32,154 bases of DNA from a virus. This document shows positions 5,512-32,154 of the stretch, piece by piece (the first letter of the stretch is position 1; each line of letters starts with the position of its first letter). The notes beneath the pieces were generated by a model. That model ran no database searches, was not told the DNA's origin, and was given only the letters and a program-made list of their open reading frames with translations. Made by a program: the position numbers and the translations under genes. The stretch spans positions 1-32,154 of IMG/VR virus record IMGVR_UViG_3300033064_007095; one strand, written 5' to 3'.

Positions 5512-7005
5512 TTAAAAAGCTATTCCATTATCATCAACATTAATATCGAAAGCTTCAGCAGCTTCAATCATCGGTATTTGCATTGGCTCACGATCAATAT
5601 ATTGTACCACATCACGATCATCATCAACATCACGGAATTTTGTTTTATCACCGATCCATTGCAACAACGTTGTGTTCGTTGATCCACCACGATATTTAGC
5701 GAATATAATTTCAGTATTTGCACCCTTATCAACTAACTGCAATAAATCAGGACTATAATCATCTCTATCCATTTCAAGCTTATAATATTCGGGCCGGAAT
5801 ATAAATTGCACGATGTCGGCATCTTGTTCAATCGCGCCCGAATCACGCAAATCAGATAGTGCCGGCCGCTTGTTTCCACCTCGTGTTTCAACAGCACGCG
5901 ACAATTGCGACAAAGCAATTACCGGAATATTCAGTTCTTTTGCCAATCGTTTTAATCGTCTTGAAATAGATGATATTTCGCTTTCACGGTTCCCTTTTAT
6001 TGATCTATCAGTCATTAGCTGAACATAATCAATCATCAAAACTTTTATATTATGCTTTCGCTTCCAAAGCTTTGCAGTTATCACAATATCATTGATATCA
6101 GTTTTACCACCATCTTCGATGTAAAAAGGATATTCATTCATTCGTTCCTGGTGAGTGCTGAAGGTGTTGAAATATTCAACATGTTCGAATCCGGTTTTTA
6201 ATAATTGCTTTAAATGAAAGTTTGTATCAATTGCAACAGCGCGTGCGGTTAATTGTTCAATAGACATTTCCAAAGAAATAAAACCAACACCATCACCTTT
6301 TTTGCAATTCTCGATCGCGCATTTCAATACATAAGAAGTTTTACCCATTCCAGGACGTGCTGCCACAATAACCAAATCTTGATTCCTATATCCACCGGTA
6401 TATTTGTTTAATCGTCTGAAGCCAGTATCAACACCCACCAATTGAACTTCATCTTTGTTCGTAGATAACAATTCAACTTCTTTTTTTAAGTTTTGCAAAG
6501 CTGCCGGAAAACTCATTGTGGACCGACCAGCATTCGTGAAATCCATTACTTTATCGAATTCTTTTTGCCAACGACTCATCAATTCAAAAATATCGGTTGC
6601 ATCGTTATAAGCCAAAGCAATAATTTGATTTGAAAATTGTATCGTTTTTCGCGCCATAAACTTTTGCAATAAAATATGGCAGTGGTGTTCGATGTGTGCA
6701 GATGATGCAATTCTTTGAGTTAATTGCATCAAATTAAAATCACCACCAGCAACATTCAAAGTATTTAATTTTCGAAGTTCTTGTGATACAGTCAATAAAT
6801 CGATAGCGATTCCAGAATTGAACAAGTTTTTTATGGCAATAAAAATATGGCGATTCGTTTCTTTATAAAATACTTCATCTGTTGTGATGATCGCCATAGC
6901 TTCTTCTAATCCGGTTGCATCAATTAATATTGCACCAATTACAGCTTCTTCTATATCTACAGATTGTGGTAATAGTATTTGATTATTTTGAATAGTGTTT
7001 TCCAT
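5512..7005 (-). CDS. dnaB: Replicative DNA helicase, DnaB-like
   Basis: Hexameric 5'-3' helicase that unwinds the fork and recruits primase. The 497 residues contain an N-terminal helical domain (to about 155: SVDIEEAVIGAILID, DLLTVSQEL), then the RecA-fold motor. Walker A is AARPGMGKTS (215-224) and Walker B is VLMIDYVQL (322-330). The DnaB signatures SQLSRAVETR (366-375) and SDLRDSGAIEQDAD (384-397) are intact. The upstream initiator gene stops 2 bp before this start and carries the likely origin. A phage with its own helicase and initiator needs only host primase and polymerase (inference). Confidence 0.95.
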   Translation of the reverse strand: MENTIQNNQILLPQSVDIEEAVIGAILIDATGLEEAMAIITTDEVFYKETNRHIFIAIKNLFNSGIAIDLLTVSQELRKLNTLNVAGGDFNLMQLTQRIASSAHIEHHCHILLQKFMARKTIQFSNQIIALAYNDATDIFELMSRWQKEFDKVMDFTNAGRSTMSFPAALQNLKKEVELLSTNKDEVQLVGVDTGFRRLNKYTGGYRNQDLVIVAARPGMGKTSYVLKCAIENCKKGDGVGFISLEMSIEQLTARAVAIDTNFHLKQLLKTGFEHVEYFNTFSTHQERMNEYPFYIEDGGKTDINDIVITAKLWKRKHNIKVLMIDYVQLMTDRSIKGNRESEISSISRRLKRLAKELNIPVIALSQLSRAVETRGGNKRPALSDLRDSGAIEQDADIVQFIFRPEYYKLEMDRDDYSPDLLQLVDKGANTEIIFAKYRGGSTNTTLLQWIGDKTKFRDVDDDRDVVQYIDREPMQIPMIEAAEAFDINVDDNGIAF

Positions 7006-7007
7006 AA

Positions 7008-7691
7008 TTAAAATCCTCCTATTTTTTGTTTGACAGCATTTAACTCAATTACTGGAACATCATACTTTAATTGATTCTTGATCCAATTTCGGGCATAAGT
7101 CACAAATCGACCTTCCAGCGTATTGTGTTTAAATGCCAAGCCTTCTTTTAAAACGGTTGCTTCAAACATTGCAGCGAAATCACTAAAATCATTAATTTTT
7201 GATTTATACTGCATCATTAACCGTTCAAATTCTGAAGGATAATTTATTTCGAAAAAAGCGAGTGCGGTTCCTCCCTCTTTTTTACTACTATCTTTTTTGC
7301 TAGAATCTTTATTACTATTATTTACCGATTCACCAATGATTGGGTTTTCCGATGTTGGATTTTCCAATGATTGGATTTCCAATGATTGGAAATCAGCTAT
7401 TGGCTCGAAATACAAATGATATTCAACTGTGAATCCATTACCAGTTTGATGTTTTTTTCGTAACAAATAACCAAACGATTCTAGTTCTTTTAAGCCTTCA
7501 GAAATACTCGATTTAGCTTCTTTACATTGGAAGGAAATCTTTTCAACAGAAAACTTCCAACTCTCCGGTTTTGATTGCATATAAGAAAATAATCCTTTTG
7601 CCTTCAATGAAATTTCCTTATCATTCAATAATGAATTTGGAACCATCCCAAAAGGCACCGGACATTTTTTTAAATTAAATACCGGCATCAC
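7008..7691 (-). CDS. Replication initiator with winged-helix domain (lambda O-like organisation)
   Basis: 227 residues. The N-terminal winged-helix region (about 1-95: VPNSLLNDKEISLKAKGLFS, SSISEGLKELESFGYLLRKK, a hydrophobic wing) resembles phage and plasmid initiators and helix-turn-helix replication proteins. It is followed by a linker (97-135) made of 5-residue repeats and then DSSKKDSSKKEGG, and a C-terminal domain (140-227: FERLMMQYKSK, RFVTYARNWIKNQLKYD) of DnaT/primosome type. The linker DNA contains 15-bp palindromic iterons (7333-7405), so protein and origin appear to share the same DNA, as in lambda O. The next gene is the helicase it would load. Family placement is inferred from architecture. 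Confidence 0.7.
   Translation of the reverse strand: MMPVFNLKKCPVPFGMVPNSLLNDKEISLKAKGLFSYMQSKPESWKFSVEKISFQCKEAKSSISEGLKELESFGYLLRKKHQTGNGFTVEYHLYFEPIADFQSLEIQSLENPTSENPIIGESVNNSNKDSSKKDSSKKEGGTALAFFEINYPSEFERLMMQYKSKINDFSDFAAMFEATVLKEGLAFKHNTLEGRFVTYARNWIKNQLKYDVPVIELNAVKQKIGGF
7333..7405. other. Iteron array, probable replication origin
   Basis: Five units at 7333, 7349, 7364, 7379 and 7394 (spacing 16, 15, 15, 15). The best copies read CCAATGATTGGATTT, an almost perfect dyad (CCAAT-G-ATTGG); the outer ones are degenerate. The array is in-frame and translates as 5-residue repeats (QSLEI, QSLEN, PTSEN, PIIGE). It is flanked on one side (7275-7330) by a very A/T-rich tract encoding the Ser/Lys linker, a plausible unwinding element. 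The layout matches oriLambda inside gene O. Confidence 0.65.
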
Positions 7692-8092
7692 TTTAAAGTT
7701 AAATATTTATAATTCGCCATTTGAACGTTGATGATCGCATTTGAAGCTTTCACCATGGCATCGGCTTTTTTATAGATTTCATCGCTGGCAGCACCATTTG
7801 CAATCTCATTGAATACCGCTTCCAAAGAATCCGTTAAACGATTCGATAATTTATTGGTTTGAATCACTTCGGCATTTAAAACAGGTGATTGTGCCACAAC
7901 AACATCAGCTTCAGCGGCGATAAATTCTACTTCATTATAAAACGATTGCAGCTCCGATGCTGTTTTCGAGAACGTCACCCGGTCCGTTTGAATAACGGCG
8001 ATATTATTAATGATTTTCGCCTTAACTACTTTGTACTTTTTACCTTCAAATGCAAAGCTTGCATCTGCAAAATCTTCGAGTATTTTTTTCAT
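7688..8092 (-). CDS. Conserved phage hypothetical protein upstream of the initiator (134 aa)
   Basis: Starts MKKILEDFADASFAFEGKKY. The first half is beta-rich (KYKVVKAKIINNIAVIQTDR) and the second is helical (LEAVFNEIANGAASDEIYKK, MVKASNAIINVQMANYKYL). No catalytic or metal motif is seen. A 4-bp overlap (ATGA) with the initiator gene argues for a replication-related role, perhaps an initiator accessory protein (inference). I do not recognise a named family. Confidence 0.6.
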   Translation of the reverse strand: MKKILEDFADASFAFEGKKYKVVKAKIINNIAVIQTDRVTFSKTASELQSFYNEVEFIAAEADVVVAQSPVLNAEVIQTNKLSNRLTDSLEAVFNEIANGAASDEIYKKADAMVKASNAIINVQMANYKYLTLK

Positions 8093-8115: not shown

Positions 8116-8934
8116 TTAGTATCTTAAATTCACCTTATTTCTACTTCTGTAGTTGTAAATTTCCTCAATAAGTAACCGCTGCTGTTCTCTATTAGCACAA
8201 TCAACTAATGCTTTAGGTTGTAGCCTAACTTTGTGCATAAACTCGCTATAATCAAAAATAGTATTAGTAAATAAACCTAACATAGTACCTACAAAAGTGG
8301 TTTTATTATATCCAGCATAATATGGCTTTATTAGTCTTAATTTTTCTGCCCATTCATTAGCTAAATCAAAATCTTTACCTCTCCAAGTTCCATCTACAAA
8401 AACTTCAGTTACATTGATTGAGTCACCACTTTTTGCAATTCTATTTTTTTGAGACGCATCAAGTCCTGAACTTCCTGTGATATTACTACACATTGCAATA
8501 CAATCTCCAAAAGTAAAATCCTCATGTTTTTCTGTAAAAAATCTAAGTTTTTTATATGAATCTAAGCCCATGTCAGCATAACCATCCATAAAATCCTTTT
8601 TAGTCCAGTTCTTTTGATTAAGATTTAAAGTATGAACTTCTTTTAATGAGTAGTTTTTCAATACAATATAGAAAATATGTGATTGTGCCTCTTTTGATGC
8701 TAGCAATCTATGCTGCCCATCAATGACTTCCATTCTTTCATTTACTAAAATAGGATTGCATAACATTCCATTTTCAATAATTGATCTTTTTAATCTTTTT
8801 ACGTGTTGCGGATTTGGAACTCTATTTCCTCCAATACTTTTAAAGATTGATAAATCATTTGTTTTGTAAACTTCGTTTACCGCTGCGTGAACTTGAGCAC
8901 TTATTGTCATTGGTTCTTTTTTAATTGTGTTCAT
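8116..8934 (-). CDS. ParB/Srx-fold domain protein (272 aa)
   Basis: The N-terminal ParBc/DGQHR-type domain is recognisable: NPQHVKRLKRSIIENGMLCN, then MEVIDGQHRLLASKE with the D72-G-Q-H-R76 core. The rest is helical and contains NWTKKDFMDGYADMGLDSYK, but no clear ParB HTH or dimerisation domain. No ParA is nearby, so plasmid-like partition is unlikely. Such stand-alone phage proteins are often annotated as ParB-like nucleases or regulators. It lies 2 bp after the HNH gene and 23 bp before the next gene, inside the early operon. Biochemical role unknown. Confidence 0.75.
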   Translation of the reverse strand: MNTIKKEPMTISAQVHAAVNEVYKTNDLSIFKSIGGNRVPNPQHVKRLKRSIIENGMLCNPILVNERMEVIDGQHRLLASKEAQSHIFYIVLKNYSLKEVHTLNLNQKNWTKKDFMDGYADMGLDSYKKLRFFTEKHEDFTFGDCIAMCSNITGSSGLDASQKNRIAKSGDSINVTEVFVDGTWRGKDFDLANEWAEKLRLIKPYYAGYNKTTFVGTMLGLFTNTIFDYSEFMHKVRLQPKALVDCANREQQRLLIEEIYNYRSRNKVNLRY

Positions 8935-15747: not shown

Positions 15748-16581
15748 TTAATTTGTTACTTTAAATGCTCGTAAAGTGGTTGAATCTCCTAAACTTGATT
15801 GTTGTGCTGAAATAAATAAATAAATAATTGCCGATGTGTTAAAAGCGACATTAACTTCATCAGCACTTGCAACAGATTCGTCAGATTGGACACTAACTGT
15901 AGCAGATGCCAATCTAATTGTACCTGAATTAATAACTGGATTTCTAACCATAATATAAGCATCTGTTGCCGTAATTGCTAAATAAGAAGATAAGAGAGTT
16001 GAAGTTGCAAAGTTATTTGTAATATTAAATCTTAACCTAACAGTTGACTGCGAGGAATCTCCAGTTTTACTCATTCTTATTTTAAAATTTGGCATACAAC
16101 TACTTGGAAAAGCATTTGAAGGAATTTCAAATGTTGACAAAAGTGTTTCTGCTACCGTTCCTGTCACTGTCGAATTTGGAAAGGCATTTATTATAGTGTT
16201 TGTGCCAGAAGCGCCTTGAATGCCTTGGATTCCTTGGCTTCCAGTATCACCTTTTACTCCAGCTAAACCTTGTATTCCTTGGATTCCTTGGCTTCCGGTA
16301 TCTCCCTTAACTCCAGGCAAACCTTGGCTTCCAGTATCACCTTTTACTCCAGCTAAGCCTTGTATTCCTTGGATTCCTTGGCTTCCGGTATCTCCTTTTA
16401 CCCCAGGCAAACCTTGGCTTCCAGTATCACCTTTTACTCCAGCTAAACCTTGTATTCCTTGGATTCCGGTATCGCCTTTTTGACCCTGAACACCAAACTC
16501 CGCGATTTCAATCGTAACCGGTGATATGTTTTCGGTGATATCTATATTTACATCCTCAATAATTTCAGTGATTGTGATCAT
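15748..16581 (-). CDS. Collagen-like phage appendage protein (277 aa)
   Basis: The N-terminus (residues 1-30) should attach to the particle. Residues about 32-125 are an uninterrupted Gly-X-Y series (GQKGDTGIQGIQGLAGVKGD…) expected to form a collagen triple helix. The C-terminal 150 residues (STVTGTVAETLLSTFEIPSN, then strands ending TTLRAFKVTN) are a beta-rich trimeric head domain, the likely receptor or surface-binding tip. The repeats are coded by 90-bp tandem units. It overlaps the upstream structural gene by 4 bp and lies just after the endolysin gene. It probably decorates tail tip or fibre. Confidence 0.8.
   Translation of the reverse strand: MITITEIIEDVNIDITENISPVTIEIAEFGVQGQKGDTGIQGIQGLAGVKGDTGSQGLPGVKGDTGSQGIQGIQGLAGVKGDTGSQGLPGVKGDTGSQGIQGIQGLAGVKGDTGSQGIQGIQGASGTNTIINAFPNSTVTGTVAETLLSTFEIPSNAFPSSCMPNFKIRMSKTGDSSQSTVRLRFNITNNFATSTLLSSYLAITATDAYIMVRNPVINSGTIRLASATVSVQSDESVASADEVNVAFNTSAIIYLFISAQQSSLGDSTTLRAFKVTN
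16211..16480 (-). repeat. 90-bp tandem repeats encoding the collagen-like stalk
   Basis: Nearly three copies of a 90-bp (30-residue) unit, with identical blocks 90 bp apart at 16271, 16361 and, shortened, 16451. Each holds two 36-54-bp sub-blocks coding GVKGDTGSQG. Near identity at DNA level suggests recent expansion, and copy number can change by slippage or recombination. Short reads could also miscount it. Confidence 0.85.
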
Positions 16582-31229: not shown

Positions 31230-32154
31230 TTTGTTGTTCTTTTAAAAGTTGGTTTGCCATCGACAAAGCCTGCATATTGACTGGCTGTAAGATTTCGCTA
31301 AGACCTTCGATTGGGTTCATATCTTCGAGCGCACGAACTTCGTTCCTGGTGTAAATTCCGGAATACACCATGGCGGTATAATAACCTTGTTTCATGGCAA
31401 GATCACCACGCAGTAAGGAATTAATATTGAATTTGGTGTAGACAAGACCAGCTTCTTTTGCTGCGAAAAGTTTGTTGTTTAATTCCTGTTCGTTAGCCAC
31501 CACAGATGGTAAAACCGAATCCTGAACGTGTTCAATAGACTGCTGATAAATGTTAGAGTAATTAGAATTACCTAATTCTTTCAATTTATGCGGTGCAATA
31601 TTTAACCATCGACAAACTTCGAGCACGCCGTTTTTATTGGTTTCGAGAAACTGCGCTTCAGCTGGCGTGATGGTTATGGATTTGTACTTTAGTCCAGCAT
31701 CAAGTAGTGGAACCTTAAATTTGTCCTTTGAAGCCATTTTTGACGAAAACGAATTTTCGATGGCCATCTTATTTTCCTTGTTTACTGGACTATCAGATTC
31801 GATTACACCATATCCAAGGCCGCGGTCCTGGTAAACTTCTTGTTGAAAGTTTTGGCTGTCAATAGAAATCCCGAGTTGCTTGGCGGCAAAGGTGATCACA
31901 CCTACACCGACAATGCCATCAAAAGAAAATCCTTTGAAATGCAACATATCGGCGGAAGCAATCCATCGGCCTTTGAATTTATAGTATAATTTTTCGTTGA
32001 GAATGTAAATAGAAACATCGCTGGCATAGCGAAATATAAGACTTTCGATTTTACCGGATGTTTTGTTTCGGATGATTTCGGCGAAAGCATTGCCTTTGAC
32101 AATTTTTGAATATTCGATAATTTTCCAAAAATCGAAGGCATTCATCAAATCGTT
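31210..32154 (-). CDS. Phage portal protein, C-terminal part
   Basis: This is the continuation of the gene whose N-terminus is at 1-429. It covers residues 97-410 of the 410-residue protein; 32014-32154 repeats residues 97-143. Portal-like features include the wing/stem segment FDFWKIIEYSKIVKGNAFAE, IIRNKTSGKIESLIFRYASD, DMLHFKGFSFDG, and the crown-proximal GVLEVCRWLNIAPHKLKELG, SNIYQQSIEHVQDSVLPSVV, then YSGIYTRNEVRALEDMNPIE near the end. These are the conserved phage_portal blocks, including the TRNE.R..e…p motif. Confidence 0.93.
   Translation of the reverse strand, partial: NDLMNAFDFWKIIEYSKIVKGNAFAEIIRNKTSGKIESLIFRYASDVSIYILNEKLYYKFKGRWIASADMLHFKGFSFDGIVGVGVITFAAKQLGISIDSQNFQQEVYQDRGLGYGVIESDSPVNKENKMAIENSFSSKMASKDKFKVPLLDAGLKYKSITITPAEAQFLETNKNGVLEVCRWLNIAPHKLKELGNSNYSNIYQQSIEHVQDSVLPSVVANEQELNNKLFAAKEAGLVYTKFNINSLLRGDLAMKQGYYTAMVYSGIYTRNEVRALEDMNPIEGLSEILQPVNMQALSMANQLLKEQQNGNSTK
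32014..32154. repeat. Terminal direct repeat, right copy (circular closure)
   Basis: Identical to 1-141 over all 141 bases. It marks the overlap where the circular sequence was opened, inside the portal gene. Confidence 0.95.

Follow-up and report, generated by a model that had tools for sequence, protein, structure and literature searches.

Within the 32,154-base virus record IMGVR_UViG_3300033064_007095 (the window, meaning here the whole stretch analyzed), a minus-strand gene encodes a putative phage replication initiator, and the gene of a DnaB-type helicase follows directly. We consider it very probable that positions 7275-7403 represent a cis-acting replication origin that lies within the gene encoding its initiator. 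In the mechanism proposed, the N-terminal winged-helix domain of the initiator would bind dyad units (CCAAnnnTTGGAAA) where the gene encodes the linker. Multiple bound molecules would assemble on the array, and the assembled complex would strain and open the adjacent A/T-rich tract. The C-terminal four-helix domains would deliver the phage DnaB, the product of the next gene, with no separate P-like loader, and the remaining replication factors would be supplied by the host. Binding, melting, helicase recruitment and origin activity are what we infer here from features that were computed, namely the repeat array, the DNA-level constraint, the two-frame reading, the domain layout and the linkage to dnaB.

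Repeat units, reading frames and constraint in the linker

Five tandem units occupy positions 7329-7403, in the linker of the initiator (residues 96-119), and are followed, in the reading direction, by GTAAATAATAGTAATAAAGATTCTAGCAAAAAAGATAGTAGTAAAAAAGAG. The original prediction, made from the same DNA, had described five dyad units of 15-16 bp; five tandem units are indeed present, but the dyad CCAATCATTGG is perfect in three of the five only, the remaining two being degenerate (CCAATAGCTGA and CCAACATCGG), and the units are spaced by 14, 15, 16 and 15 bp. As a result of this spacing, one DNA unit is read in two frames, with units 2 and 3 read one base off from the others, and, because the spacings sum to 60 bp, the frame is kept only across the array as a whole. 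The related proposals of a five-residue repeat encoded by the units and of a period that maintains the frame are thus correct in part, as the peptides read PIAD/QSLE/QSLE/PTSE/PIIG, with no single repeat among them. The array exceeds chance: only one of 300 dinucleotide-shuffled versions of the whole window contained a 5+1+5 palindrome, of whatever sequence, in three copies within 70 bp, and none of 5000 synonymous-codon shuffles of the initiator gene contained three copies of the dyad. Elsewhere in the window, CCAATCATTGG does not recur even when one mismatch is allowed.

Relatives L035, L037, L038 and L039 share the two-frame layout of the window, and among them the DNA unit is kept while frame and peptide change. 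In L008 and L009, a like DNA unit recurs strictly every 15 bp, in a single frame and with different peptides. Relatives keeping the peptide repeats and losing the DNA dyads had been named as an outcome that would refute the origin; the reverse was observed. A 15-bp iteron had also been presented as a departure from known arrangements, but a period of 15-16 bp is usual for this branch, as, of 66 distinct relatives with strong self-match, 53 have their best repeat lag at 15 bp and 11 at 16 bp, and the TP901-1 gene discussed below has 15-bp-period repeats at the same place. In a sister group of initiators with another N-terminal domain and other iterons, units are read in more than one phase in 37 of 48 distinct sequences. 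Spacing in that branch alternates between 22 and 23 bp (L003, L048, L056 and others), and as each pair measures 45 bp, or 15 codons, alternate units fall in alternate frames.

Synonymous differences were then compared among five relatives sharing the layout, with an amino-acid-matched control as the expectation. The N-terminal and C-terminal domains gave 0.387 and 0.384, respectively, while the iterons reached 0.127 against 0.371 expected (one third) and the A/T tract 0.035 against 0.319 (one ninth). Third-codon constraint across relatives, put forward earlier as a check, is therefore strongly positive, and supports the claim that an origin is embedded in the gene. Amino-acid change in the iterons and A/T tract (0.21-0.24) was as frequent as in the N-terminal domain (0.20), and few synonymous changes combined with amino acids free to vary show that iterons and A/T tract are both selected as DNA. 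The pattern recurs in a 16-member sister group, with synonymous differences of 0.181 in the iterons, 0.041 in the A/T tract and 0.42-0.49 in the domains. One could suppose instead that a flexible, repetitive linker is selected as peptide and that the DNA repeats are its by-product, as the linker is predicted to be disordered and the units of L008, all in frame, encode a neat peptide repeat. This is highly improbable, given that the window, like most sister initiators, reads one DNA unit in two frames, and that synonymous sites are constrained where amino acids vary; the explanation was rejected because frame and peptide change and the DNA unit stays. On the best explanation, it is rather the linker peptide that is, for the most part, a by-product of the DNA sites.

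Two further accounts address the same stretch. These phages are mosaic, and the low synonymous divergence could stem from a recent exchange of the linker segment by recombination and not from constraint; however, amino-acid change in the segment is as frequent as in the N-terminal domain and the pattern recurs in the diverged second group, which leaves this account with very little credence. Alternatively, the repeats could serve an mRNA structure (an attenuator or translational control), as the stretch folds better than shuffles (z -2.2 and -2.6). Such folding is nevertheless inevitable for tandem palindromes, compensatory changes were seen at 0 of 27 predicted pairs, with an unfavorable covariation term, and Rfam returned no match; on the latter two grounds an RNA structure was rejected as extremely unlikely.

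As had been predicted, an A/T-rich tract borders the units (Table 1). It encodes a disordered Asn/Lys/Ser stretch (residues 122-138) and, at the 50-bp scale, ranks within the least stable 1% of the window. As a separate observation, runs of TAR triplets (TAATAGTAATAA, TAGTAGTAA) on the minus strand of the tract at 7275-7325 are similar to the DnaA-trio of bacterial origins, a likeness that could be a coincidence of Asn/Lys/Ser codons.

The array could also consist of operator or handcuffing sites for the initiator or another dimeric regulator, with the true origin elsewhere, as dyads bind dimers, and iterons in other replicons serve both in replication and in repression or handcuffing. We regard this as unlikely, since the array lies mid-gene and not at a promoter, the A/T tract is under even stronger constraint than the array, for which a mere operator would offer no reason, a second origin or operator site cluster was not found in the window, and the in-gene repeats of homologues have been reported as ori (PMC8965321).

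Recognition helices and half-sites

Three N-terminal types occur, each accompanied by different repeats in the linker. That of the window is accompanied by repeats of the form CCAAnnnTTGG; that of the sister group by 7-nt half-sites flanking an A-rich six-base spacer; and that of L015 by TTGGCTAAAAATAGCCAA-like dyads, read by eye. The sister group sample comprised 142 distinct sequences, 88 of them with at least two linker dyads. In this branch, positions 0, +3 and -1 of the recognition helix were the top three of 54 variable N-terminal columns for half-site information. Lysine at -1 is associated with G at position 3 or 4 of the half-site (Fisher p 1.5e-6 for 49 representatives and 1.4e-4 for 39), and when disjoint closest pairs differing by a basic residue at -1 were compared, G at position 3 or 4 was present on the basic side only in 16 and on the other side only in 1 (p 2.7e-4), these redundancy and closest-pair controls reducing, without eliminating, the effect of relatedness. 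Recognition-helix residues thus appear to set which DNA letters are recognized in the sister branch.

A single pair of loci, L005 and L006, illustrates this pattern. They are 96.6% identical over 3.3 kb, and their initiators (L005:776-1453 and L006:3022-3699) differ mostly in the recognition-helix region (DRI to DHK) and in several half-sites, with TATTGAC changed to TAGTGAC, that is, T to G at position 3. Judged from these sequences, the pair is a putative natural specificity switch.

Because initiator and origin would share one gene, hundreds of sequenced phages may provide natural pairs of a DNA-reading helix and its target. Coordinated evolution of replication specificity, residue-to-base reading and a coding sequence under two demands would thereby become testable, and the system could offer small replicons for Flavobacterium genetics, as well as a pointer to a domain that probably recruits DnaB.

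Domain architecture and comparison with known systems

The initiator is matched by PHROGs replication initiation families, with E down to 8e-15, and its winged helix by Pfam HTH_36 with E 3.6e-5 and 23.9 bits, just under the cut-off of 25, which is passed by relatives L035 (27.0) and L042 (27.5). AlphaFold2 places the winged helix at residues 17-95 and predicts residues 100-138 as disordered, coinciding with the iterons and A/T tract, and the C-terminal domain, folded alone, reached a predicted local distance difference test (pLDDT) of 86.7. The family of this C-terminal domain is shared by initiators of all three N-terminal types, whose linker repeats differ. At loci with this C-terminal family and enough flank, dnaB was located downstream, on the same strand and within about 85 bases of the stop, in 29 of 29 cases (26 distinct contigs), and in the roughly 1 kb read beside initiators with the same N-terminal type but other C-termini there was no dnaB. 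As dnaB follows the C-terminal family at every such locus, this linkage suggests that the C-terminal domain recruits the phage DnaB. In the window, the 2-bp distance between the initiator stop and the dnaB start (7005) given in the original prediction was confirmed.

Several observations weigh against the proposed origin or parts of its mechanism. Stretches less stable than the A/T tract exist in the window at 50 bp, and at 100 bp the tract is only within the least stable 16%. GC skew has no switch at the array site. The covariation signal in the window's own N-terminal branch is not centered on the recognition helix at 90% redundancy and is gone at 75% (n=23). Finally, the C-terminal domain, of about 76 residues, has no significant match by sequence or Foldseek in Pfam, PHROGs, the Protein Data Bank (PDB) or BFVD. 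In particular, searches of the C-terminal part against Pfam, PDB and PHROG and with Foldseek gave no significant hit to a DnaD/DnaB_2 fold or sequence.

With respect to known systems, the nearest characterized relative of the initiator is the TP901-1 Rep (tblastn E 2e-8, 35% over residues 2-102); a PDB sequence search retrieved no relative. TP901-1 Rep (ORF13) and Tuc2009 Rep2009, from Lactococcus P335 phages, have a winged-helix domain homologous to that of the window, and these replisome organizers reportedly bind in-gene repeats functioning as ori (PMC8965321). In the TP901-1 gene, CCAnnnnTGG units with a 15-bp period lie in the linker and are followed by an A/T-rich, Asn-rich tract, as in the window. 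On the other hand, the C-terminal part differs, the half-site differs (CCAATCATTGG in the window), no dnaB is annotated within 1 kb after rep where in the window it is directly next, and the window's relatives are flavobacterial. On the basis of the homologous winged helix and the in-gene 15-bp-period repeats, the window initiator is assigned by homology to the TP901-1-type (HTH_36) replisome organizers and not to lambda O.

Kinship with lambda O, as originally proposed, is therefore not retained. The lambda-O Pfam family (Phage_rep_O) did not match the window initiator at E up to 0.1, and no P-like loader gene separates the initiator from the helicase, the search for a loader elsewhere in the genome not having been exhaustive. 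Weak matches (E 4e-6 and 0.002) were obtained to PHROG families described as O-like; they run from the part of the winged helix that holds the recognition helix into the linker. The likeness is one of arrangement and of the proposed mode of working: in lambda O, iterons and an A/T-rich tract lie mid-gene and the initiator binds the iterons (PMC7466680), and iterons and tract are likewise within the initiator gene in the window. In contrast to lambda, the window has a unit period of about 15 bp and the phage carries its own DnaB.

Other replicons share parts of this layout. Inside gene 38 of SPP1, which encodes the origin-binding protein, oriL contains direct repeats and an A/T-rich unwinding element, and the phage encodes the DnaB-type helicase gp40 (PMC6316719). 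Its likeness to the window is one of arrangement (in-gene repeats, A/T element, phage-coded DnaB-type helicase); however, SPP1 also encodes the loader gp39 as a separate protein and possesses another origin, oriR, while no second site cluster was found in the window. RepA_N/pPR9 plasmid initiators of the pSK41 family have Rep boxes inside rep, a dispensable linker and a modular N-terminal domain, and a chimeric pPR9 Rep carries an HTH_36 domain (PMC5703833). A fold search with the window's winged helix gave many resemblances, including pSK41-type Rep-DNA structures, none of them significant; the Foldseek match to the N-terminal domain of pSK41-type Rep (4PQL/4PT7/5KBJ) was weak, with TM 0.50 of the target and E 0.04-0.3. 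Pfam RepA_N (PF06970) did not match the window initiator, whose C-terminal domain is unrelated to these initiators by sequence and fold search. Iterons converging on poly-A (PMC7145576) resemble the sister-branch layout. In the RepA of PLE, which are Vibrio satellites, modules swap and the origin covaries (PMC8263062), but the PLE origin is intergenic, where that of the window would be in-gene, and the covariation is documented for few types and not at residue level.

In-gene origins are thus already known (lambda O, SPP1 oriL, TP901-1/Tuc2009, pSK41 Rep). The present analysis contributes a flavobacterial set, units read in two frames, a quantified constraint on synonymous sites, a recognition pattern resolved to residues for the sister branch and a C-terminal domain without known relatives. 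The open papers searched included none on the origins of flavobacterial phages, a weak indication that none exists. A broader proposal, somewhat more doubtful than probable, is that the 76-residue four-helix bundle of the flavobacterial initiators may be a new helicase-recruiting domain loading the DnaB of the phage without a separate loader, and that in-gene origins and the recognition helices reading them may form a natural, readable code for protein-DNA specificity, with both parts changing in step within a single gene.

Features and genome context

Table 1. Positions of the initiator, its predicted domains and DNA elements, and the adjoining helicase gene in the window.
Feature	Position	Strand	Remarks
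Initiator gene	7008..7688	-	226 aa from ATG 7688; alternative upstream GTG 7691 possible
N-terminal winged-helix DNA-binding domain (HTH_36-like), predicted	7404..7655	-	residues 12-95; AlphaFold2 pLDDT mostly 70-92
Iteron unit 1, CCAATAGCTGATTT	7390..7403	-	degenerate; frame 0, PIADF
Iteron unit 2, CCAATCATTGGAAAT	7375..7389	-	frame 2, FQSLEI
Iteron unit 3, CCAATCATTGGAAAAT	7359..7374	-	frame 2, IQSLEN
Iteron unit 4, CCAACATCGGAAAAC	7344..7358	-	10-bp core; frame 0, PTSEN
Iteron unit 5, CCAATCATTGGTGAA	7329..7343	-	frame 0, PIIGE
A/T-rich tract, candidate DNA unwinding element	7275..7325	-	21.6% GC; strongest synonymous constraint in gene
C-terminal four-helix domain, candidate DnaB-recruiting	7074..7268	-	residues 141-205; pLDDT about 95 over core
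DnaB-type replicative helicase	5512..7005	-	497 aa; DnaB_C 1.4e-80, PHROG 19 1.4e-88

The initiator ATG at 7688 overlaps the TGA of the upstream open reading frame (7688-8092, minus strand), and the alignments of relatives begin at the Met it encodes. On the minus strand, genes are ordered from 7688-8092 (function unknown) through the initiator, dnaB, HNH and small terminase to the large terminase. No tRNA genes were found in the window, and a sigma-70-type promoter scan scored no higher than in shuffles.

Relatives were found in Flavobacterium sp. NRK1 and in phages of Cellulophaga and Leeuwenhoekiella, hence the flavobacterial assignment; close relatives were few in a family-wide genome search (14 of 397 genomes). 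An exact 141-bp direct repeat is present at the two termini (1-141 and 32014-32154). The record therefore probably represents a complete phage genome, either closed into a circle or with terminal redundancy, that measures about 32,013 bp. In addition, a ParB-like protein (8116-8934, minus strand; PHROG 12305, E 7e-30) is encoded within the replication gene cluster, and a collagen-like Gly-X-Y repeat protein (GIQGIQGLAGVKGDTGSQGLPG; 15748-16581, minus strand) among the late genes.
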